Source of the DNA: Roseicyclus sp. | GTDB lineage: Bacteria; Pseudomonadota; Alphaproteobacteria; Rhodobacterales; Rhodobacteraceae | Direction of reading: 5' to 3' | DNA length: 64,000 nt | NCBI GenBank assembly: GCA_018401055.1 | Contig: JAGYLB010000073.1 | Location: 1-64,000, forward strand | In this document: piece after piece, positions 2,936 to 61,525 of the stretch | Layout: every line of letters starts with the position of its first letter | Position numbering within the stretch: the stretch's first letter is position 1 | The notes under the pieces: generated by a model | The model's input: the letters and a program-made list of their open reading frames with translations, nothing else | Database searches by the model: none | Told to the model about the DNA's origin: nothing | Translations under genes and position numbers: made by a program

Positions 2936-4518
2936 GACGGCCTCCTTCGGTTGCGGGTCTCGCGGCGTGCGCGCAACCCCCGGACGGACAGGCTCAGCGC
3001 AGAGATGCCCCAACCGGTGGGGACCGAATTGCCCGAGGCGGGACCTTGGCCTTGCACGTCGGAGGGCGGAGGCTCATCGGTGGCAGGCCCTGGCGCGGCG
3101 GGGCCGACGGGAAGGGCACGGTACAAAAGGCCGGTGACGACGACATAGGTGATGAAGGCCCCCAGCGCCTGCCCGAGGCCTTCATGCCCAACGACGACCA
3201 TCAGCGCCCCTGCGGCCGAAAGGCCGACAAAGGGCGGAAGCAAGGACCGCAGCACCGGAGCCGAGGGCACCAGCCAGGCCCGCGTCGCGACGGTGGTGAT
3301 GACTGCGGCGACCGTGGCCGACAGCAAGGCCGCAAGTGCTGCGCCAAAGGTGCCAACCAGAATGATCAGCGTGGCGGCGATCACAACCTGCATTCCGACG
3401 AGACCTACAAGCAGGAGGCCCGGTCGGTGCTGGCGGGGCAGGCTCAGCATCAAGGCGCCGTTCAGAAGGAAGACTGAAACAGGGACAAGGGCAAGGCAGA
3501 GAAGTTTGAGCACAGGGGCCGCAACGGCGTATTCGGACGGCAGCATGAGGTCGACAAGAGGAACCGCCGCGGGCACGCCCAGAACGGCCAGCGCACCGCA
3601 TAGCGACAAGATCAGCCGCAGCGACATGGCGTAGAGATCACTGAGTGCCCCGCGATCATGGGCTTCGGCATGGACAAGCCGGGGCGTGAGAACCGCGCAG
3701 AGCGTGAGGGGCACCATCAGGGCCGCCTCGTAGATGCGGCTGGCCGCGCCGAAATACCCCAGCTGGATCGGGTTGCCCAGCTTGCCCAGCACAAGGAACT
3801 CGGTCTTCAAGATGACCAGCGTCAGCACGCTGACCACGGCAAAGGGCGCGGCGCGGCGCAACAGCAGCGGCCAAACCCGCACCCGGGCCGACAACCGCAG
3901 GCGCACCCCTGTCCTGAGGAGGCCCAGCATCACGACGGCCAGAAAGACGGTGTTGCCCGCGGCCATGGCGGCTGCAATCGCCACGACGCCTCCGCCCAGC
4001 GCATGCGCCAGCGCGGCAAGACCGAGTTGTGTCAGCGCCAGCGCGATATGCGCAACGGCGGACCACGCGAAGATGCCGCGCGCGTGCAGCACCTGCTCGG
4101 TAAGCAGCGCGGCACCGATGGTGAGCATGGCCACGCTGATCACAAGGAAGATCCCGACAAGCGGCCCGTCCGCCGCGCGCAAGAATACGATCCCCAGAAG
4201 GATGGCATAGATCACCGCCCCGAGCGCCGCCTTGAGAGGAATGAGCCGTCCCAGACGCCGCGCGGCCACGGCCGGACGGCGCGAGGCATCCCGCAACAGC
4301 ACGCGGGTCATGCCGAGATCGGCAAGGATATCGGCCAGCACGGCAAGGGTGACGGCGTAGGTGAGCAGCCCGAAATGTTCGACCGACAGCCATCGCGCAA
4401 GCAGCAGGAAGAAGACGAAGTTCAGCACCTTGGCCAGAAGTTGGGCGATCAGGAACATGCCCGAGGCGCTGAGCACGGCGCCCAGCGGGCTGCGCGCAAG
4501 CCGCGAGAGGGCGCTCAT
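2932..4518 (-). CDS. Oligosaccharide flippase (Wzx-like, MATE superfamily)
   Basis: Integral membrane protein of 528 residues with 12 or more hydrophobic segments, from FLIAQLLAKVLNFVFFLLLA near residue 23 to about residue 460, and a Pro/Gly-rich cytoplasmic tail. The N-terminal pattern (AKVLNFVFFLLLARWLSVEHFGLLTYA) is typical of the polysaccharide biosynthesis/transport family that moves undecaprenyl-linked repeat units across the inner membrane. Start ATG at 4518 overlaps the stop of the glycosyltransferase gene upstream (stop at 4517-4515, ATGA), so the two are translationally coupled. Together with an O-antigen ligase/polymerase, a Wzz-like protein and an outer-membrane export protein in the same locus it points to a Wzx/Wzy-type pathway. 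Confidence 0.9.
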   Translation of the reverse strand: MSALSRLARSPLGAVLSASGMFLIAQLLAKVLNFVFFLLLARWLSVEHFGLLTYAVTLAVLADILADLGMTRVLLRDASRRPAVAARRLGRLIPLKAALGAVIYAILLGIVFLRAADGPLVGIFLVISVAMLTIGAALLTEQVLHARGIFAWSAVAHIALALTQLGLAALAHALGGGVVAIAAAMAAGNTVFLAVVMLGLLRTGVRLRLSARVRVWPLLLRRAAPFAVVSVLTLVILKTEFLVLGKLGNPIQLGYFGAASRIYEAALMVPLTLCAVLTPRLVHAEAHDRGALSDLYAMSLRLILSLCGALAVLGVPAAVPLVDLMLPSEYAVAAPVLKLLCLALVPVSVFLLNGALMLSLPRQHRPGLLLVGLVGMQVVIAATLIILVGTFGAALAALLSATVAAVITTVATRAWLVPSAPVLRSLLPPFVGLSAAGALMVVVGHEGLGQALGAFITYVVVTGLLYRALPVGPAAPGPATDEPPPSDVQGQGPASGNSVPTGWGISALSLSVRGLRARRETRNRRRPS

Positions 4519-52085: not shown

Positions 52086-53665
52086 GCGCGGTCGCAGGCT
52101 ACGCCGCCCCGGCCACGAGCGGCACGGGGCGCGGCACGGCCATAGGGCTGGTGCTGGTGCTCTTTGGCTGGGAACTGGCGGCGCGCGCCTTGGTGGGGCC
52201 TTCTGTTCTGGCCGCCCCCTCGCAGGTTCTGTCGTGGCTGATCGAGAACCGCGGCCTGATGGTGGCGCGCGCTGGCCGAGACGCTGGGCAATGCGGCGGC
52301 AGGATTCGTGCTGGGCAATCTGGCGGCGCTGGTTCTGGCGGGCATCGCTTTGGCCTTTCCGGGCCAGCCAGCGCATCGTGACGGGCGTGGCGCTGGTGGT
52401 GTTTTGCTTGCCGCTGGTGGCGACCGGCCGATCCTGCGCGTCATCTTTGGCCCCGGCGACGGGCCGCAGATCGTGCTGGCAGCCCTTGCCGTCTATTACA
52501 CCACGCTGATCCCGCTGCTCGTTGGGATGCGCGCGGCCCCGCCACATGGTTCGACCTGATCGCCAGCTACGGGCGGGGCCGGGTCGCGGCACTGATCCAT
52601 GTGCGGTTGATGGCGTCGCTGCCCTATCTGTTCGCGGGCTTGCAGATAGCGGCCCCTGCCGCTTTTCTGGGTGCAATGGTGGGGGAGTTCACCGGAGCCG
52701 AACGCGGCATGGGCGTGCTGACCATCCGCGCCATGCGGGCGCTGGATGTCGACATGACATGGGCGCTGGCGAGCGTGGCCACGGCGGTGGCGGTGGCGGC
52801 CTATCTGGCCGTGGGCGCCATGGCGCGCCGCGTGCTGAAAGACGCGCCTCCGATCATCCTTGCGCCGCCCCGCGCCGAGGGGGCCGAGGCCGGGATCGGC
52901 CAGTTGCCGCTTTCGCTGGTGGCCGTCGCGGCGGCGATCCTTGGGCTGTGGTGGGGCCATCGCGGTCTTCGATCTGAACCCGTTCTTTGCCAAGGGACCG
53001 CAAGATGTGGCCCGTGCGCTCATCTGGGCCCCGAATGCCGAAGCCACCCGCGCCAGCCTTGGCGCGGCGCTGGCCGAGACGACGGTGTTCCTGCTGCCCG
53101 ATACCTTGCGGGCCTTGCGGCGGGCGCCGGTCTTGCGATCCTCTTTGTGCTGGCCCCGGCGGTCGCAGGCACGGCCATGCCGCTGGCCATCGCGCTGCGC
53201 TCGGTGCCCATCGTGACCACCGCACCGCTGATCGTGCTCATGCTGGGGCGGGGCGCTACGGGCACCATCGTGCTGGTGGCCGTCATGGTGTTCTTTCCCA
53301 CGCTGGTCGCCTGCATTCACGGGCTGAAACAGGCGCCCGGGCAGGTGATCGATGTCTTCGACAGCTATGCCGCGGGGCGTTTGCAGCGTCTGATCCGGGT
53401 GCGCATCCCCGCAATGCTGCCTGCCTTTTTCGCCGCTGCGCGCATGGGGGTTCCGGCTTCGGTTCTGGCGGTTACCGTGGTGGAATGGCTGGCGACCGGC
53501 GCGGGGCTGGGCAGTTTGATGGCGATCTCGGCCTCGGTTTCGGATTACAACATGCTCTGGAGCGCCGTGGCCCTGACCGCCGGACTGTCTGCGCTGGGCT
53601 ATGCCGGCGTCGGACTGATCGAGGCGCGCATCTTGCGGATCTATGCCCCGGAGCAACTGACATGA
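52082..53665 (+). CDS. Fused tandem ABC permease (several frameshifts)
   Basis: About 527 residues containing two BPD-type permease domains in one chain. GTG 52082; half 1 has GLVLVLFGWELAARALVGPS, VFCLPLVATG, FDLIASYGRGRVAALIHVRL (EAA loop) and AAFLGAMVGEFTGAERGMGV. Half 2 has ALAIALRSVPIVTTAPLIVL-like LRSVPIVTTAPLIVLMLGRG, IDVFDSYAAGRLQRLIRVRI (second EAA loop) and VPASVLAVTVVEWLATGAGL. Frames change near 52270, 52355, 52420, 52540, 52960 and 53090-53120. Single-domain permeases are the norm for NMT1-type importers, so the fusion is unusual. Stop overlaps the next ATG (ATGA). Confidence 0.8.
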
Positions 53666-54714
53666 CCCTGCGCGCCACGGCCTTTGCCATTCCCGGCGAT
53701 ATCGAGACGCTGACGGGGGGCTACATCTACGAGCGTCGCCTGCTGGAAGGATTGCGCGCTCAAAGGCGCGACGTGGATCACATCCCGCTCGGCTCCTCCT
53801 TCCCGGTTCCGACAGCGGGTGACATGGCCGATGCGGCCGCCCGCCTGCGCGCCATCGAGCCCACGCGCGCGCTGATCCTCGACGGGCTGGTCTTCGGCTC
53901 CATCGACACCGCCCTGCTGGCCGCCCTGCCGATGCCCGTGGTGGCGATGCTGCACCATCCGCTGGCCCATGAAAGCGGGCTGGAGCCCGCCCTGCGCGAC
54001 CACCTCTACAAAACCGAACGCGACAACCTGCGCCACGCCGCCCATGTTCTGGTGCCAAGCCCGCACACGAAGGCGCTGCTGGTGTCGGATTATGGCGTGG
54101 CCCCCACCCGCATCACCATCGCGCGCCCCGGCACCGACAAGCCACTGGGCTAGATGCCGCCCGCCGATCCGCCGCTGATCCTGTCCGTGGGCATCCAGCA
54201 TCCGCGCAAAGGGCATGACATCTTGCTGCGCGCGCTGGCGCTTCTGCCGCCCGGCGGCTGGCAGGCGATGATCGTGGGCACGCGCTATGACGCGGGCCAT
54301 GCCGCGATGCTGGACCGGTTGCATGCCGATCTGGATCTTGGCGACCGGGTGCGGCTGGCGGGCCGCCTGCCCGGCGACGATCTGGGCCGCGCCTATGCGC
54401 AGGCCAGCGTCTTTGCTCTCGCCACCCGCTACGAGGGCTATGGCATCGTCTTCGACGAGGCGATGGCCCATGGCCTGCCGATCGTGACCTGCGCCACGGG
54501 TGCGGTGCCCGACACCGTGGCCAAGGGCGCTGGGGCTGCTGGTGGCGCCTGACGACGCGCCCGCCTTTGCCGAAGCCTTGGCCCGCGTGCTGTCGGACGT
54601 TGCATTGCGCAAAAGCATGGCCGCAGCCTCGGCGCAGGCCGTAGCGCGGCGTTGCCCGGATGGGCGGATACCGCGCGGATCGCGGGCGCGGTGTTGGATG
54701 CACTGCCCGGCTGA
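53662..54714 (+). CDS. Glycosyltransferase family 4 (one in-frame stop, one frameshift)
   Basis: About 350 residues. The N-terminal domain from ATG 53662 has FAIPGDIETLTGGYIYERRL, MPVVAMLHHPLAHESGL and VPSPHTKALLVSDYG. An in-frame TAG at 54151-54153 follows GTDKPLG, and the same frame continues directly with PPLILSVGIQHPRKGHDILL, LFALATRYEGYGIVFDEAMA-like VFALATRYEGYGIVFDEAMA and GLPIVTCATGAVPDTV. Near 54530 it shifts to GLLVAPDDAPAFAEALARVL, then shifts again to WADTARIAGAVLDALPG with TGA at 54712-54714. Coupled to the ABC permease by ATGA, an odd partnership. Whether it is a real pseudogene or poor sequence is open. Confidence 0.75.
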
Positions 54715-55213
54715 CAGAATCGCGAGGACAACCTGCGATTGTCCCGAAACCGCCTGCGCCGTGATCCTTGCCGTGGTAAAGAGCGCCTGAAAATAGGGCA
54801 CCCGCGAAATCTTGAGGCGTGACAGCCGGTTGCCCCTTCCCTCGCGCCGCACTGCCGCGCAACCTGAATTCAGTCAGACGGCATCGCGTTTCTCCTCCCT
54901 TCCTTCCCGCGCTGTCCGGATGATGAGAAAACCCTGCTGGCGGCCCGCCTCCTCGTCTCTCTTCCACATGGTCGGGTCGCCAGCTTTTTTCACCGGAACA
55001 TAGCTGGTGGCGGGACGCAGCGCGGGTGATCGGGTCGCATCCGAACACCCGTCCGTGTTGCGGCCGATCCACCATCGTCCGATGGCAAACCCCACCCCCC
55101 AAGATGTCACCCGCTGGCCGCCCGCCACAGTCCCGCCACATTTCCGGTCCGTATCGGCCACATTTCACCGGCAGGCTTTCGCGATCACAGGCAAAAGACA
55201 GGGGAACCCCGCC
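54715..55213. other. Region without a convincing gene
   Basis: 499 bp between the glycosyltransferase stop and the first short peptide gene. A 95-codon minus-strand frame (54874-55161, starting MADTDRKCGGTVAGG) exists, but it has no recognisable domain and no good ribosome site, and is listed here only as a possibility. The last part carries the ribosome site AGGGGA (about 55199-55204) of the peptide gene at 55214. No terminator or repeat was seen. Confidence 0.5.
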
Positions 55214-55328
55214 ATGCCGAAGCAGTCCGAACGCTGCACCCGCCTCTGCCCCTGCCCCGGCCAAAGGGGCGAAGCCAGAACCGATGCCGCCCGCACCGAT
55301 CCGCTTCAAGGATTGGGCCAGCATCTGA
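55214..55328 (+). CDS. Short peptide gene 1 ending in RFKDWASI (one frameshift)
   Basis: ATG 55214 has a good ribosome site (ACAGGGGAA, about seven bases away). MPKQS is followed by a one-base frame problem near 55229-55233, after which the chain is Ala/Pro/Lys-rich (AAPASAPAPAKGAKPEPMPP) and ends APIRFKDWASI with TGA at 55326-55328. The repaired peptide has about 37 residues. The last eight residues match those of peptide 2 (57230-57418), which ends RFTDWASI, with synonymous differences in the codons, so the ending is conserved at the protein level. No signal peptide is visible. TfoX-C gene starts 12 bases downstream. Function unknown. Confidence 0.6.
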
Positions 55329-55340
55329 TAGCTTGCGGTC

Positions 55341-55700
55341 ATGACCGACCCGCAAACGCCAACCGACGACAGCGACCCCGTGACCGCAATCCGCCACATC
55401 GGCCCGGCTCAGGCCGAGGCGATGGCGCGCGCGGGCATCCCCACAGCGACGGCCCTGCGCCAGATAGGTGCGGATGCCGCCTATCGCGCCATGGTGAAGG
55501 CCGGGACCCAGCCCCATTTCATCGGCTATTACGCGCTGCACATGGCGTTGCAGGGCCGCCCGTGGAACGACTGCAAGGGCGATGAAAAGACCGCGCTACG
55601 GGCCCGGTTCGACGCCCTGAAGGCCGATCTTGCCGACACAGGCGGCGATGGCGCGCTTGAACGGTTTCTGGACCAGATCGGCACCGGAAGACGGCGCTGA
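55341..55700 (+). CDS. TfoX/Sxy C-terminal-domain protein
   Basis: 119 residues. AIRHIGPAQAEAMARAGIPT, ALRQIGADAAYRAMVKAGTQ and YALHMALQGRPWNDCKGDEK form the helix-hairpin-helix-like TfoX C-terminal domain, found alone here without the N-terminal TfoX half. In gamma-proteobacteria TfoX/Sxy controls competence; stand-alone C-terminal domains have no settled role. It directly follows peptide gene 1 (12 bp) and precedes the di-haem peroxidase (181 bp). Intact. Confidence 0.8.
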   Translation: MTDPQTPTDDSDPVTAIRHIGPAQAEAMARAGIPTATALRQIGADAAYRAMVKAGTQPHFIGYYALHMALQGRPWNDCKGDEKTALRARFDALKADLADTGGDGALERFLDQIGTGRRR

Positions 55701-55881
55701 AACAGCAGTCGAGGGGGGCAAGCCGACGTGGCGCCAAAGGGCGACAGGCTGCCGCACCGTGCCGGATCGAAACCGCCTGAAATCTTGATCCACGTCAATT
55801 ATTTCGCGCCGGAAATCGGCCATGTCTGGAACTGTTCCAATTCCGGACGAAAGACGACGTGTTAGTATCGGAGACCTGATC

Positions 55882-56922
55882 ATGAGACATCTCACCCTGA
55901 CAGCCACAGTCGCCCTGGCGACCGCGATCGCGGGACCGGCGCTGGCAAATGATGAGCTTCGGTCCTATGCCAACGACCTGTTCGACCCGATCCCGCTGAC
56001 CACGCCCGATCTGCCCAACAACATCATCACCCGCCCGCGCGTCGATCTGGGCGCGATGCTGTTCTTCGATCCGCGCATGTCGCGGTCGGGGCTGTTCTCG
56101 TGCCAAACCTGCCACAACGTGGGCCTTGGCGGTGTCGACGGGCTCCAGACCTCGATCGGCCATGGCTGGCAACAGGGTCCGCGAAATTCGCCCACCATGT
56201 ACAACGCGGTCTTCAACATCGCGCAATTCTGGGATGGCCGGGCCGCCAACCTTGCCGAACAGGCGATGGGCCCGGTGCAGGCGGGTGTCGAGATGAACAA
56301 CACGCCCGAACGTCTGATCGAGACGCTGAATTCGATGCAGGGCTATGTCGATGCCTTCGCCGAAGCCTTCCCCGGTGAGGCTGACCCGATCACCTTCGAG
56401 AATTTCGCGCTGGCCGTCGAGGCTTTCCAAGCCACGCTGACCACGCCCAACTCGCGCTTCGACCAGTTCCTGAACGGCGCCGACACGCTGACCGAACAAG
56501 AAATCCGCGGCCTGAACGCCTTCATCGACCAAGGCTGCGCCGCGTGTCATGCGGGCGTCAACATGGGCGGGCAAGATTACTATCCGTTCGGTCTTGTGGA
56601 ACGCCCCGGCGGCGCCGTGCTGCCCGAAGGCGACCGCGGTCGCTTTACCGTCACGGAAACGGCTGCGGATGATTACGTCTTCCGCGCTGCGCCTTTGCGC
56701 AACATCGAACTGACCGCCCCCTATTTCCACTCGGGCGTGGTCTGGTCGCTGGAAGAAGCGGTCGCCGTGATGGGCGTGTCGCAGCTGGGGGCCGATCTGA
56801 GCGAGCAAGAGGTCGAGGATATCGCGGCCTTCTTGCGGACGCTGACGGGCGAGATCCCGCAGGTCGTGCACCCGACGCTGCCGCCCAGCACCAACACGAC
56901 GCCGCGCCCCGAACCCATGTAG
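55882..56922 (+). CDS. Di-haem cytochrome c peroxidase (CCP/MauG superfamily)
   Basis: 346 residues from ATG 55882 (ribosome site GGAGACC). Sec signal (LTLTATVALATAIAGPALAN), then haem-binding CQTCH (74-78) and CAACH (219-223). GHGWQQGPRNSPTMYNAVFN, WDGRAANLAEQAMGPVQAGV and APLRNIELTAPYFHSGVVW are the classical bacterial peroxidase motifs, and LSEQEVEDIAAFLRTLTGEI ends the fold. Periplasmic reduction of H2O2 is the default role, but the same superfamily includes MauG and MbnH, which oxidise Trp in partner proteins. It lies between two short genes whose peptides end in a conserved Trp-containing tail. Terminator-like hairpin follows at 57043. Confidence 0.9.
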   Translation: MRHLTLTATVALATAIAGPALANDELRSYANDLFDPIPLTTPDLPNNIITRPRVDLGAMLFFDPRMSRSGLFSCQTCHNVGLGGVDGLQTSIGHGWQQGPRNSPTMYNAVFNIAQFWDGRAANLAEQAMGPVQAGVEMNNTPERLIETLNSMQGYVDAFAEAFPGEADPITFENFALAVEAFQATLTTPNSRFDQFLNGADTLTEQEIRGLNAFIDQGCAACHAGVNMGGQDYYPFGLVERPGGAVLPEGDRGRFTVTETAADDYVFRAAPLRNIELTAPYFHSGVVWSLEEAVAVMGVSQLGADLSEQEVEDIAAFLRTLTGEIPQVVHPTLPPSTNTTPRPEPM

Positions 56923-57042
56923 GGCCGGCCACAGGGTTTCGGCGCCCCGCCCCTCCGACCCCATCCTCCCGGTGGGTCATGGGCAGGCGCCGGACAGGGG
57001 ACGCGGGCTTACCTCCCTTTGACCGCGACCCCGCCAGATGCG

Positions 57043-57070
57043 AAGGGCCGCCCCCTTGGGCGGCCCTTTT
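57043..57070 (+). terminator. Rho-independent terminator after the peroxidase gene
   Basis: AAGGGCCGCCC (57043-57053) pairs with GGGCGGCCCTT (57058-57068) around a four-base loop, followed by TTTT. The stem is GC-rich and 11 bp long. It lies 121 bp beyond the peroxidase stop and 160 bp before peptide gene 2, so peptide 2 is probably transcribed separately. Confidence 0.8.
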
Positions 57071-57229
57071 CGCGTCTTGCAGGCGACAGTTTGCCGATGC
57101 CGCACCGGCATTGGGCAAGGGCCGCAGTTTGGTGCTTGACGGATGGATCGGCTTGGCGCACTGCCCCGCCTGCCCGCGCAACGTCGCAGGGCTTGAGCAG
57201 ACCCGCAGCACACCAGATCAGGCACAGAC

Positions 57230-57418
57230 ATGAACACCCCACGACCCGGCGCGCAAATCGGCGCGACCCAATCCTCTCAGGCGCAGGTTCAGAGTGGCAC
57301 CGGTGCCACCCCGACCCAACGGGGCAGCCAGCAGGCGGGTGCAGGCCAGATCCAGCAGACAGGCGCGAACGGCGCACAGACGCCCAAGACGCGCTTCACC
57401 GACTGGGCCAGCATCTGA
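57230..57418 (+). CDS. Short peptide gene 2 ending in RFTDWASI
   Basis: 62 residues, intact: MNTPRPGAQIGATQSSQAQV, then Gln/Gly/Thr/Ala-rich low-complexity sequence, then AQTPKTRFTDWASI and TGA at 57416-57418. Only the C-terminal eight residues are shared with peptide 1, and they are encoded with partly different codons. There is no signal peptide, no hydrophobic segment and no Cys. Converges with the response regulator gene (27 bp). The design, a variable disordered body with a fixed tail, suggests a recognition or docking tail, a degron or a modification site. I do not recognise the family. Confidence 0.65.
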   Translation: MNTPRPGAQIGATQSSQAQVQSGTGATPTQRGSQQAGAGQIQQTGANGAQTPKTRFTDWASI

Positions 57419-57445: not shown

Positions 57446-58084
57446 TCAGATCAGGGCGCGCTCGCGGCTGATCATCACAGCATGGGCACGGTTGCGCGCC
57501 TCCAGCTTGCGGCAGATGGCGCGCATGTGCATTTTCACCGAGACCTCGCTGATCGCCATGTCGCGCGCGATTTCCTTGTTGGTCAGCCCCTCGGCGGCGC
57601 GGCTCAGGACGAAATGCTCCTTTTCCGACAGGGGCGTATCGCCTCCGCCCGCCGCCGCCTTGCTGTCGACACCCTGCATCGGCACGAAGATCTGGCCCGA
57701 GGCGATCAACTGGATCACGCTGAGCAGCGATTGCAGCGGCATCGTCTTGGGGATCAGGCCGCGCACCCCGAACTCCAACGCACTGTTGAGGAAATGCCGG
57801 TCCACCTGACCGGTGAACAACACGACCCGCGCAGCTCCCGCCTTGTCGACCACGTTCTTCACGCTCGACAACCCGTTCATACCCGGCATCTTCAGATCCA
57901 GCAGCACCACATCATAGCCGCCACCCTGAAGGGCGGACATCGTGGTCTCGTAGGTTTCCGCGATGCTGACGGTATATCCCGCCGAGGTACGGAGAAGGTT
58001 TCCGACCGCCTCGCCCAGCAGGCGATGGTCATCGCCGATCAGGACGGTCAGGCTTTCTGCGGTATCGGACGACTGTGTCAACAT
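57446..58084 (-). CDS. LuxR/NarL-type response regulator
   Basis: 212 residues. Receiver domain: LTVLIGDDHRLLGEAVGNLL with the acidic pair D18/D19, phospho-acceptor D63 in YDVVLLDLKMPGMNG, Thr/Lys switch in VVLFTGQ and GLIPKTMPL (K113). C-terminal LuxR HTH, residues about 152-205: LSEKEHFVLSRAAEGLTNKE and ISEVSVKMHMRAICRKLEAR. Intact. The upstream region (58085-58367) separates it from the molybdopterin-domain and hybrid kinase genes. It is probably the output partner of that kinase, although the kinase's Hpt domain could feed others. Confidence 0.9.
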   Translation of the reverse strand: MLTQSSDTAESLTVLIGDDHRLLGEAVGNLLRTSAGYTVSIAETYETTMSALQGGGYDVVLLDLKMPGMNGLSSVKNVVDKAGAARVVLFTGQVDRHFLNSALEFGVRGLIPKTMPLQSLLSVIQLIASGQIFVPMQGVDSKAAAGGGDTPLSEKEHFVLSRAAEGLTNKEIARDMAISEVSVKMHMRAICRKLEARNRAHAVMISRERALI

Positions 58085-58287
58085 GGTTCTCGCTTACTCC
58101 AAAGGTCCTGCGCAGACGCCCAAATGATGTTTCCGGAAGTCTGAACGACTATCGGGCATACGTGAGATCGGTCGACCACACCAAAGGCATCTTGACGATA
58201 GTTGCAGCAAAACACTTTAACCTGACAAGCAATCCTTTGCTGCACCGTCTGCGCATGCGGGGTTTGATCCTATCCAAATATACACTT

Positions 58288-58305
58288 TGCTATCTTTCGA
58301 TAGCA
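58288..58305. promoter_or_regulatory. 18-bp dyad upstream of the molybdopterin-domain gene
   Basis: TGCTATC (58288-58294) and GATAGCA (58299-58305) are exact reverse complements around TTTC, followed by AGAAAAAAAA. It is 63 bp upstream of ATG 58368 and about 200 bp upstream of the divergent response regulator. The A-run lies on the wrong side for a minus-strand terminator. An operator for the LuxR-type regulator is a reasonable guess. A further ATAGTTGCA word, also found twice at 36963-36999, is at 58198-58206. Confidence 0.5.
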
Positions 58306-58367
58306 GAAAAAAAACCGTCGGGATGTTTAGGTAGCGGGCGCAGTTCCGCAGCCAAGCGAGGTTTTTC

Positions 58368-58851
58368 ATGATTCGACGGAATTTCATCAAGATCGCAGGC
58401 GCGGCCGGCGCCGCCGCCCTGCTGGGCGTGCCCGCACGGGCTGACGAGGTGTTGCTGACCATCACGGGCAACGTGACCGATGGGACGCGCGCCCTGACCG
58501 ACGCCGACCTGCTGGCACTGCCGCAAATCAGCTTCGAGACATCGACGATCTGGACCGATGGCGTGCTGCGCTTTTCCGGCCCTTCGGTCGCCTCGGTGCT
58601 GGAGGCTGCCGGCGCGGGCGAGGGCGACATCACCTTCGCGGCGGTCAACGACTATGTCGTGTCCATGCCGCGCGACGTGGTCGAGGCCGGGGCGCCGATC
58701 ATCGCCAACCGCATCGGCGGCGAACCCTTCAGCCGTCGCGACAAGGGCCCGCTTTGGATCGTGTTCCCCTATGACAGCGACGCGCGGTTCCGCTCCGAAA
58801 GCCTCTTATGCATATAGCGTGTGGCAGCTGGTCGGTCTGACCGTCGGCTGA
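58368..58851 (+). CDS. Secreted molybdopterin-binding-domain protein (one frameshift near the end)
   Basis: About 160 residues. Tat-like signal (RRNFIKIAGAAGAAALLGVP), then VLLTITGNVTDGTRALTDAD, LLALPQISFETSTIWTDGVL, VASVLEAAGAGEGDITFAAV, NDYVVSMPRDVVEAGAPIIA and PLWIVFPYDSDARFRSE: the oxidoreductase molybdopterin-binding fold without further domains. The conserved Cys that ligates Mo in sulfite oxidases is not seen. Removing one T at about 58806-58808 gives the normal ending YAYSVWQLVGLTVG. The next gene, a hybrid kinase, starts 3 bases later. As a periplasmic small domain it may sense a ligand for the kinase rather than catalyse. Confidence 0.8.
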
Positions 58852-58854
58852 GGC

Positions 58855-61525
58855 ATGACCGCGCCCGGCACCAGAGCTTCGCTTCGCCCGCGCCCGCTTG
58901 GGGGGCCCACCACCAGGGTCGACCGCGCGCGGCTGGGCGGCGCGATCTTGCTGGCGTTGCTGGTCCTGTCTTGCGGGGCCCTGATCTTCAGCGCGGCCTC
59001 CTTCGACCGTCGCCTGAACGCAGTCAGGGACGCCGATACCGACAATCAGGGTTGGATCGTGTCGCAACTCGAGGTCGATCACATGTCGGTCATCCTTGCG
59101 GCGTCCGACGCCTTGGCCAGCGCCGCCGCCGACGGCACGGTCGAAGCTCAGGCATGGCGCGCGCTGCAGGCCGACTTCGACATCTTCTACAGTCGCATCA
59201 ATGTGTTCACCGCCGCGATGCGAAATGTCGACCTCTCCCCCGAGTTCGAGGCCAGCCTTGCCGCGCTCCAAGACGCAAAGCGCGACCTGACAGCCCGGAT
59301 CGACCTGATCGAGCCCGACGATATCGAGGGGCTGCGCGTCTTCGCAGCCGAGTTGCGCCAGCGTGAACCTCTTGTGCGCAGCCTCGTGACGCAGGGCTTG
59401 CAAGTCTTTGTGACCGAAGCCGAAATGGCACGCGAACGCGAGCGCGAGATCTGGCTGTTCTTCCTGATCGAGACGCTGGTGCTGCTGTCGCTGGTGCTGG
59501 TGGCCAGCGTTTTCGCCCTGCGGCTCAGCCGCGCGCTTCAACAGCGCACCAAGGAGGCCGAACGCGCGGCCTCGACTATCACCAAGGCCTACGAGGCCTC
59601 GCTCAGTGCCGTTGTCGTGACCGATTTCGACGGCCGGGTGCTATTATGCAACAACGCGGCGGAAACCATGTTCCGCCTGCCCATGGCCGAGATCATTGGG
59701 ATCGACGTTCTCCGCCTTGCGCCCGCACGCCTTCAGCGCGCGTTGGATGCGACCTATGACGAGATGCGCCGTTGCGCGACGCGAGATACTCCCTGCCGGG
59801 TGTCGCGCCGCACGCTGGCCGTTCGCTCGAACGGCGATGTGTTTCCGGTTGAACTGGCCCTTACCACCGACACCGACGGCGAGGGCGTGCCCATCGCCAT
59901 TGCCTTTGTCCGCGACATCTCGGCCGAGGTGCAGGCCGAGAACGATTTGCGCGGCGCTGTCGACGAGGCGCGCCGGGCAGCCGCGGCCAAAAGCATGTTC
60001 CTTGCCACCATGAGCCACGAGATGCGCACGCCGCTTCACGGTCTGATCGCGGCCCTCGACCTGATCGAACGCGACGGGATGGGGGCCGACAATCTTGCCC
60101 TGTTCGACACCGCGCGCGACTGCAGCCAGCGCGCGCTGGCGCAGGTCAACGACGTGCTGCAATTCACCCGCGCCAGCGCCACGCGCGAACCTGCGGCCCC
60201 GTTCCGACCGGCGCGCGTGGTCGATGACGTGATCGGGGAATTGCGCCCCTTCGCCCGCGAGAACGGCAACACGATCACCCTGACCCTGACGGGACCCGGC
60301 AGCGGCGTCCGGGTCATCGGCCATCCGGCCGCCTTTTCGCGCGCGATCTACAACCTTGTCGGCAACGCGGTGAAATTCAGCTCAGGCGGCAAGATCACCG
60401 TCACCTTGGCCTTTTCCGCGACCGACGACGTAGGTCCACTGACACTGCGCGTCTCGGTGGCCGACGAAGGGCCGGGCATCGCCAAGAGCGATCAGGAGCG
60501 GATCTTCCAACTCTTCGAGACCTCGGCCGAGGCTGAGCAGCGCGATCATGGCAGGAACCAGCCAGTCCGGCACAGGGCTGGGCCTGCCGATCACCAAGCT
60601 GGCAGTGGAACGCATGGGCGGCCAGATCCATCTCGACAGCACGCCGGGACAGGGCAGCTGCTTCTGGTTCGAGATCGTCTTGCCGCGCGCCACAGGCCAC
60701 GAGGACAAGCCCGCCGCGCCCCTCCCGCTCGCGGCCCCGCCTTCAGGCGCACCCCAGATGCCCGAGGGTCTGGTCTGGGACGTTCTGGTCGTCGACGACA
60801 ACGAGGTGAACCTGACGCTGATGCTGGAAATGGTGCGCAGGCTGGGCCATCGCACCGCCGCTGCCCGCAACGGGCAAGAGGCCGTCACGCAGGCCCGCGC
60901 GCGCGCCTTCGACGTGATCTTGATGGATGTCAGCATGCCGGTGATGGACGGGCGCGACGCCACCCGCGCCATCCGCGCCGAGGGCGCGTCGCAAGGCGCG
61001 GCGATTCTTGGCGTGACCGCCCTGATCGAGGCGGAAGACCCTGACAGTTTCCGCGATTGCGGGATGGACCGCGCCTTGGTCAAGCCGGTGCGCCGTGATA
61101 CCTTGGCCGCTGCACTGGCGGAGGTAGCGCATACGCGCCATGAACCGACGCAAAAGACGGAGACCCCCGGGATGGACGCCAACGATATCAGCTTCGACTT
61201 CGCGGGCCTCAGCGATCTTGTGGGCGCCGATACCGCCGTGCGTCTGGTCCACGGAACCCTTTCCGATGCGGAAGAGGCCCTCGACCGGGCACGCGATGGT
61301 CTGGCGGGGCTGGCCGATATCGGCCATGCAGCGCACCGCGCCTTCGGCTCGGCCTCCATGGTCGGCTGGCAAGACCTGGCCGCCGTGCTGCGCGAGATCG
61401 AACAGGCCGCCATCGCGGGCGAGGCGCATGCCATCCCCGAGCTTGCCGAGGATCTGGCCGCCATGATCGACGTGGCGCGGGGCGATGCCGCCATTCTGGA
61501 CTTGCCGCGCGCGGCCGCGTCCTGA
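58855..61525 (+). CDS. Hybrid sensor histidine kinase with PAS, receiver and Hpt domains (one frameshift)
   Basis: About 890 residues. TM1 (ILLALLVLSCGALIFSAASF, near residue 30-53), a helical periplasmic sensor of about 150 residues, TM2 (FFLIETLVLLSLVLVASVFA, near 205). PAS follows (SLSAVVVTDFDGRVLLCNNA), then HisKA with the phospho-His in FLATMSHEMRTPLHGLIAAL (near 387). HATPase has NLVGNAVKFSSGG and SGTGLGLPITKLAVERMGG. Receiver has VLVVDDNEVNLTLMLEMVRR and the Asp in VILMDVSMPVMDG (near 690). Hpt His is in IGHAAHRAFGSASMVGW (near 825). A break near 60535-60550 separates the N- and G-boxes. Probably pairs with the LuxR-type regulator at 57446 and senses through the secreted protein encoded just upstream. 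Confidence 0.9.

Follow-up and report, generated by a model that had tools for sequence, protein, structure and literature searches.

Two short genes in a 64,000-nucleotide stretch of a Roseicyclus sp. contig (JAGYLB010000073.1, hereafter the window) encode peptides that end in nearly the same octapeptide, RFKDWASI in peptide 1 and RFTDWASI in peptide 2. The reading proposed here, which is given about an even chance of being right, is that both peptides belong to a group of cytosolic, disordered Rhodobacteraceae microproteins of approximately 23-74 residues, and that the free C-terminal octapeptide shared by this family docks on a common partner. The microprotein family is apparently undescribed, and C-terminal linear motifs as a kind are already known.

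Both window peptides terminate in RFxDWASI followed directly by a stop codon on the plus strand, as reported in an earlier note on this DNA, and a search of the 64 kb in six frames with the tail pattern yielded, apart from these two tails, one unrelated internal DWAS and nothing else. In a collection with one genome per species, the strict DNA pattern RFxDWASI-stop was found at 60 loci, which comprise 57 loci of Rhodobacterales type and three chance matches in unrelated organisms with open frames of just 14-16 codons. Jannaschia helgolandensis and Roseicyclus mahoneyensis, both culturable, are among the organisms matched. One of the 57 records is labelled Maritalea mobilis, a Hyphomicrobiales name, but resembles the Roseicyclus type in both its peptide and the genes around it. 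With one mismatch permitted, 49 of 394 Rhodobacteraceae genomes matched. The looser pattern [FY]xDWAxI-stop gave 130 matches in 108 of the 394 genomes, with two to three matches per genome in 17 of them, and a single match in the reversed control. A search of this family for the tail and its neighbours had been proposed in the earlier note, and its outcome is that the tail is widespread. Among 299 Pseudomonadota genomes that were drawn, ten matched, namely eight of the 14 that already belonged to the family set (one of these eight, G300, by a match without a credible open reading frame (ORF)) and two of the 285 others. One of these two is a chance match in a 14-codon frame, and the other consists of tandem peptides beside a dodecin gene that shares 91% identity with the one at family loci. 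Judged by sequence, the tail is a family signature and more than chance. A phage origin was considered and rejected, as all 17 related-pattern matches in viral contigs lie in open frames of 2-18 codons and are regarded as chance. When plasmids were searched for distant matches to the region, 23 records were obtained, and the 20 that were listed match the peroxidase and response-regulator parts only.

The tail is the conserved unit on otherwise unrelated, disordered-looking bodies, a view of the earlier note with which both column information and substitution patterns agree. In 80 non-redundant members, the tail columns carry 2.0-4.2 bits of information and the body columns 0.6-1.3 bits. The bodies of these members are rich in Pro (19%), Gln (15%), Ala (11%), and Thr (10%), and their median net charge is +2. 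Window peptide 1, read as a 74-codon frame through an indel (see below), was excluded from this set and from the hydrophobicity count given below. The consensus of the tail may be written as R-F-T-D-W-A-S-I-COOH or, more generally, as [FY]xDWA[S/A/M]I. Real variation is seen at position -2 (Ser, Ala, or Met) and at -7 (Phe or Tyr, to which the looser pattern was itself restricted), and positions -6 and -8 are freer. The earlier note had deduced selection on the peptide from synonymous codon differences between the two window tails. Within the window this argument is thin, being limited to one codon (GAT/GAC), and across species it is strong: in 11 related pairs, the ratio of nonsynonymous to synonymous differences (pN/pS) is 0.02 for the tail and 0.24 for the body. 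Both parts therefore look translated, with the tail held far tighter. The Ser at -2 is encoded 30 times by AGY and 28 times by TCN in the 80 members.

The signals expected of translated genes are present at most loci. All 130 looser-match loci were examined with the start choice capped near 84 codons, and 119 of them hold an ORF that ends in the tail and is 25-74 codons long (median 42). A Shine-Dalgarno-like site was found for 109 of the 130, a count that is not independent because the script favours starts with such a site. In an independent test with the first set of 118 ORFs, a Shine-Dalgarno-like site precedes the nearest in-frame ATG in 88 of 116 cases and nearby out-of-frame ATGs in 93 of 740. 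This set omits the three chance loci with 14-16-codon frames (L005, L006, L059), L097 with a stop inside the match, L111, and identical stretches. At the strict-pattern loci, starts chosen by ATG and ribosome-binding site give short ORFs, and some frames are open further upstream. Motifs upstream of the genes are Shine-Dalgarno-like words and a weakly enriched GCCACATTT, which occurs in 10 of 80 members in contrast to 3.1 in shuffles when one mismatch is allowed. None of 117 peptides contains a 15-mer with a hydrophobicity above 1.5 and, thus, none has an export-like stretch.

The position of the motif at the free C-terminus was also seen with searches that do not demand it. A pattern without the stop codon gave 24 matches in 120 genomes; a stop follows directly in 18 of these, all with family-like residues before the tail, and the other six are not family-like. 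A profile search of 5.8 billion proteins, with candidates of approximately 23-73 residues only, returned 319 matches at E-values up to 10, and in all of the 120 that were listed the tail stands at the exact C-terminus (112 with [FY]xDW[AS]x[ILVM] and eight with RFTDWAAF). None of these 120 relatives has a precomputed Pfam domain, and the named ones are called 'hypothetical' or 'uncharacterized'; no Pfam match was obtained for peptide 2 either. Longer carriers are possible because of the size range of the candidates. Two features expected of a C-terminal short linear motif are found in this family: the motif lies at the free C-terminus and is conserved far above its disordered surroundings.

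The relatives have little more than their last eight residues in common, and the tail is therefore suggested to be a tag that is read by another component of the cell. As a short linear motif, it would dock into one conserved cytosolic partner with its aromatic residue, the Asp-Trp-Ala core, and the terminal Ile with its carboxylate. The body would mainly serve as a soluble spacer or as a second module that varies, and the peptide could occupy a site on the partner, recruit to it, or compete for it. A more far-reaching version, held tentatively and with less than even confidence, regards [FY]xDWAxI-COOH as a lineage-specific address tag on disordered microproteins that have radiated over several loci. 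All of these would report to one undiscovered hub as interchangeable adaptors or competitive inhibitors, while their bodies would evolve almost freely.

The same C-terminal placement, the hydrophobic last residue, and the presence of one tail on unrelated, disordered-looking bodies would also be expected of a C-terminal degron. In that case, a protease or adaptor of the ClpXP, Lon, HslUV, or FtsH type would read FxDWAxI-COOH and keep the microproteins short-lived, and unfolding would start from the disordered body. If the tail were a general degron, folded regulators should carry it as well. However, all 119 ORFs have at most 74 residues within the start limit mentioned above, and no folded protein with the tail was recognised among the 130 matches. 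In addition, the invariant Asp-Trp-Ala is, to our knowledge, more specific than known degrons. A degron, which would agree with most of the observations, is regarded as rather unlikely.

The most frequent neighbour of the tail is a gene for a TfoX_C-domain protein. The repeated linkage to this gene that the earlier note had hoped to find exists, as 71 of the 130 tails lie less than 700 nucleotides upstream of a TfoX_C gene on the same strand, and in the first set the next TfoX_C start is mostly 12-114 nucleotides from the tail. In genomes with a listed TfoX_C position (150 of 285 are listed), the tail is located directly upstream in 36 of 49 cases. A match to the TfoX_C domain (PF04994) is present in 285 of the 394 genomes. 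It was found in 87 of the 108 tail genomes and not in the other 21, whose assemblies may be incomplete and two of which (G036, G355) rest on tail matches that lack a credible ORF. In 198 genomes, TfoX_C is present and this tail is not. At three loci without TfoX_C (L010, L018, L060), the peptide at the ndk site is kept. At locus L045, a decayed TfoX_C remnant (about positions 3178-3400) lies directly downstream of an intact tail peptide, and the peptide therefore outlives its usual neighbour. Accordingly, TfoX_C is linked to the tail but not obligatory. In the window, TfoX_C is in the reading frame of peptide 1, with only stop codons and a few further codons between them (55326-55343). Such an in-frame arrangement occurs at 23 of 61 linked loci, and approximately one third would be expected by chance.

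Several results weigh against a docking tail. Most search patterns require Asp, Trp, Ala, and Ile, so that the lack of variation at these residues is partly built in. For 11 of the 130 looser matches no ATG ORF was found; one of these (L109) has a GTG start, and some are close to contig ends or to cspA. No binding partner of the tail was found, and the sole docking model is that with TfoX_C. In this AlphaFold2 model of the natural stop-codon read-through of peptide and TfoX_C, based on 48 aligned sequences, of which 11 were read-through fusions and 37 came from a set of 56 complete TfoX_C sequences, the domain has predicted local distance difference test (pLDDT) values of 91-98 and its end 76-79. 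Peptide and linker reach 52-61, so that docking on TfoX_C is unsupported, which is weak negative evidence because the tail has no free carboxylate in a read-through product. Across genomes, tail and TfoX_C also co-occur weakly (87 of 108 versus 198 of 286 genomes; p 0.03, a value that ignores kinship). Furthermore, no clear diagnostic residues were detected when 60 TfoX_C copies with a tail gene upstream were compared with 25 copies without one. The largest shift between the two groups is Gly/Ala at one site; the 25 copies were taken from the 30 with the best scores and are 'tail-less' only in the sense that no tail gene lies directly upstream, and L045 was left out.

These results bear likewise on the possibility that peptide 1 and TfoX_C form a dedicated pair in which the tail binds and controls the TfoX_C domain, with the other copies of the peptide acting on the same domain. 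The directly upstream linkage recurs in many genera, as described above. On the other side stand the tail genomes without PF04994, the many genomes with TfoX_C only, the missing residue signature, and the missing docking. In addition, locus L043 keeps the peptide without TfoX_C like the three ndk-site loci, and L004, like L045, has at most a decayed remnant. A dedicated pair is, thus, considered improbable. TfoX_C as a universal partner and an obligatory pair of tail microprotein and TfoX_C were both rejected. TfoX_C, probably not a universal partner, is located beside one branch of the family and may share its transcript.

In addition to TfoX_C, the tail genes have several other recurrent surroundings. 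Of the 130 tails, 59 are near ndk (47 linked to TfoX_C and 12 not), 15 near cspA, eight each near ettA and yciA, five near a dodecin gene, and two near fnrL and hemN. The FnrL, HemN, and EttA queries behind these counts were partial sequences, and the YciA identity lies just under the cut-off. The occurrence at ndk, at cspA/ettA/dodecin, and at fnrL-hemN indicates that one tail serves several syntenic sites. Tandem copies exist as well; L025 has three and L002 has two, for instance. Second-site tail peptides near ettA, often together with cspA, were observed at L009, L102, L217, L251, L266, L273, and L292, and a different ABC-F-like gene is close to the ndk-site peptides. This proximity to ABC-F genes may point to a connection with translation but may also be plain synteny. 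Five peptides (L118, L203, L205, L224, L248) form a sub-branch that begins with M(T)FCTAH, ends in [QH][IV]FTDWASI, and is conserved at the N-terminus, too. Two of them (L118, L203), with bodies that begin MFCTAH, adjoin a gene for an FnrL-type regulator and a HemN-like gene, and for the other three no FnrL match was found within 1.5 kb. At L014, L046, L074, and L109, some tail peptides adjoin proteins that appear RTX-repeat-like by eye, in an unrelated genomic setting.

Some of these arrangements would suit a tail that acts inside the ribosome by stalling termination at its stop codon, like arrest peptides, and thereby regulates the downstream TfoX_C gene. The tail abuts the stop codon, more than half of all tails precede TfoX_C, and some loci are near ABC-F or ettA genes. 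A leader peptide would be expected to precede the gene that it regulates, directly and on the same strand, an arrangement that is found for the TfoX_C-linked copies but not overall. The first set, with the window left out and near-relatives included, holds 56 tail ORFs that lack TfoX_C. Our own gene caller assigned a downstream gene to 52 of these, and this gene is convergent in 27 of them, in 24 within 400 nucleotides. For peptide 2, it is the convergent LuxR-type response regulator that speaks against a leader peptide. Moreover, there are tandem copies, selection also acts on the codons of the body, and the peptide is kept where TfoX_C is missing or decayed. There is, in our estimate, little chance that the tail works as a nascent chain.

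The earlier note had offered yet another function as one hypothesis, in which a neighbouring MauG/MbnH-like enzyme would oxidise the tail Trp. A TfoX_C gene and a di-haem peroxidase gene do lie between the two peptides. Of the 60 loci found first, each covering up to 8 kb, eight contain a peroxidase gene, among them that of Roseicyclus mahoneyensis. The window has one as well, and most of these loci are of Roseicyclus/Roseibacterium type. The tail Trp never varies, which is built into the search. In the wider sample, 6 of the 130 tails, two of them from one genome, are within approximately 1.5 kb of a peroxidase gene, and the peroxidase is therefore a local feature of the Roseicyclus-like branch. 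For this gene, the tail is, thus, widespread with no link to the neighbour, the outcome under which the earlier note would have dropped the connection. The window peroxidase also misses the curated NCBIfam cut-offs for MbnH (171 versus 362.85 bits) and MauG (167.1 versus 443.85 bits). Among solved structures, it is closest to cytochrome c peroxidases (1zzh with 512.5 bits, residues 25-346), compared to 122.3 bits for 6e1c, a 'Di-heme enzyme', and at most 77.9 bits for MauG entries. By score it is an ordinary classical cytochrome c peroxidase, it looks like a bystander, and a strong hairpin separates its gene from peptide 2. The enzyme has a signal-like N-terminus and the peptides have no hydrophobic segment for export, a weakness that had been recognised from the start. 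Oxidation of the tail Trp is accordingly regarded as extremely unlikely, and the docking or degron tail, which the earlier note had kept as its fallback, is the better reading.

Finally, the tail might be cut off and act as a secreted or re-imported peptide signal like the XIP heptapeptide of streptococcal ComS. XIP of streptococci is GLDWWSL, to which the tail has a superficial likeness; the precursors are short and leaderless, and the neighbouring TfoX_C genes are named after a competence regulator. Pheromones generally vary, unlike the tail, which hardly changes across the whole family. No receptor was recognised next door, the hosts are Gram-negative, and the bodies are conserved as protein, too. 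A peptide signal is, thus, very improbable.

The features of the window that belong to this analysis are compiled in Table 1. The indel in peptide 1 that the earlier note had repaired is one inserted base, by which the ATG is out of frame with the tail. Roseicyclus mahoneyensis (L049) has 87% identity to the window across 8 kb and an intact 35-codon ORF for peptide 1; compared to it, the insertion follows the first two codons. A sequencing error is a possible cause because the upstream glycosyltransferase gene (53662-54720) also has indels relative to L049, being fragmented by 1- and 2-base indels where L049 has a longer single ORF. Together, the indels of both genes suggest error-prone sequence or decay in the assembly. 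The hairpin before peptide 2 is absent from the terminators listed by a simple consensus scan. Beyond peptide 2 (57446-61044), the response regulator is accompanied by a Tat-signal protein with a sub-threshold match to a molybdopterin domain and by a PAS histidine kinase. The response regulator and the Tat-signal protein have counterparts in L049, and this region is possibly a separate sensing locus.

Table 1. Features around the two tail peptides, in window coordinates
Feature	Position	Strand	Remarks
Peptide 1 gene	55214..55328	+	ATG at 55214, stop at 55326-55328; tail frame ends RFKDWASI; frame broken near start
Tail 1 codons (RFKDWASI)	55302..55325	+	CGC TTC AAG GAT TGG GCC AGC ATC TGA = 55302-55328
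TfoX_C-domain gene	55341..55700	+	PF04994, 62.5 bits; starts 12 nucleotides past the peptide 1 stop, same frame
Classical di-haem cytochrome c peroxidase gene	55882..56922	+	Signal-like N-terminus; probable bystander
GC-rich hairpin with short T run, terminator-like	57036..57077	+	-34.8 kcal/mol, z -7.5; between peroxidase gene and peptide 2
Peptide 2 gene	57230..57418	+	Clean 62-codon ORF, Gln/Gly-rich body, ends RFTDWASI
Tail 2 codons (RFTDWASI)	57392..57415	+	CGC TTC ACC GAC TGG GCC AGC ATC TGA = 57392-57418
LuxR-type response regulator	57446..58084	-	Convergent with peptide 2

The spellings of the tail did not occur in the literature searched, a scope outside which subscription literature falls, and the matches listed for 'DWASI' were off topic by title. 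Among the publications listed on small proteins of Rhodobacter, on TfoX, on disordered small proteins, and on microproteins, none dealt with this tail family by title or start of the abstract. The short length of bacterial microproteins makes them hard to group, and a family that is defined by an eight-residue C-terminal signature over unrelated bodies is missed by domain-based methods. It also illustrates that guesses from gene neighbours, here the peroxidase, may go astray if what the loci share is a tail that recurs at several unrelated sites. If one hub does read the tail, a single synthetic peptide could retrieve it, and this can be tested in culturable bacteria.

Compared to known systems, the window resembles the pairs MbnH-MbnP and MauG-methylamine dehydrogenase in that a di-haem enzyme of the same Pfam family is encoded near a Trp-containing protein; it differs in that the curated cut-offs are not reached and the peroxidase is unlinked in most genomes. 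The downstream gene product shares its fold with the TfoX_C-domain protein of Listeria (PDB 3bqt/3mab), the nearest structures to the TfoX_C model (Foldseek E-values of 0.003-0.014; TM-score of approximately 0.8 by target length), which is annotated as of unknown function and stands outside the peptide family. With ComS/XIP, the family has in common a tiny precursor and a C-terminal heptapeptide with Asp-Trp, but XIP is a Gram-positive pheromone with the receptor ComR, and neither such a receptor nor diversification was seen here. C-terminal short linear motifs are known from the SSB tip, the FtsZ C-terminal peptide, PDZ ligands, and the cargo-loading peptides of encapsulins. As in these systems, a short conserved peptide at the free C-terminus follows a disordered stretch and would be read by a shared partner. 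Their tails end larger proteins, whereas the carriers described here are whole disordered microproteins with unrelated bodies. The DUF1127 small proteins of Alphaproteobacteria are reported to have often fewer than 50 residues, to occur in several copies per genome, and to act through a partner protein (PMC12501420). In size, copy number, and partner-mediated action, which is a proposal for the tail family, the two groups are alike; they differ in that DUF1127 is a Pfam domain, whereas peptide 2 matches none and its 120 listed relatives have none precomputed.

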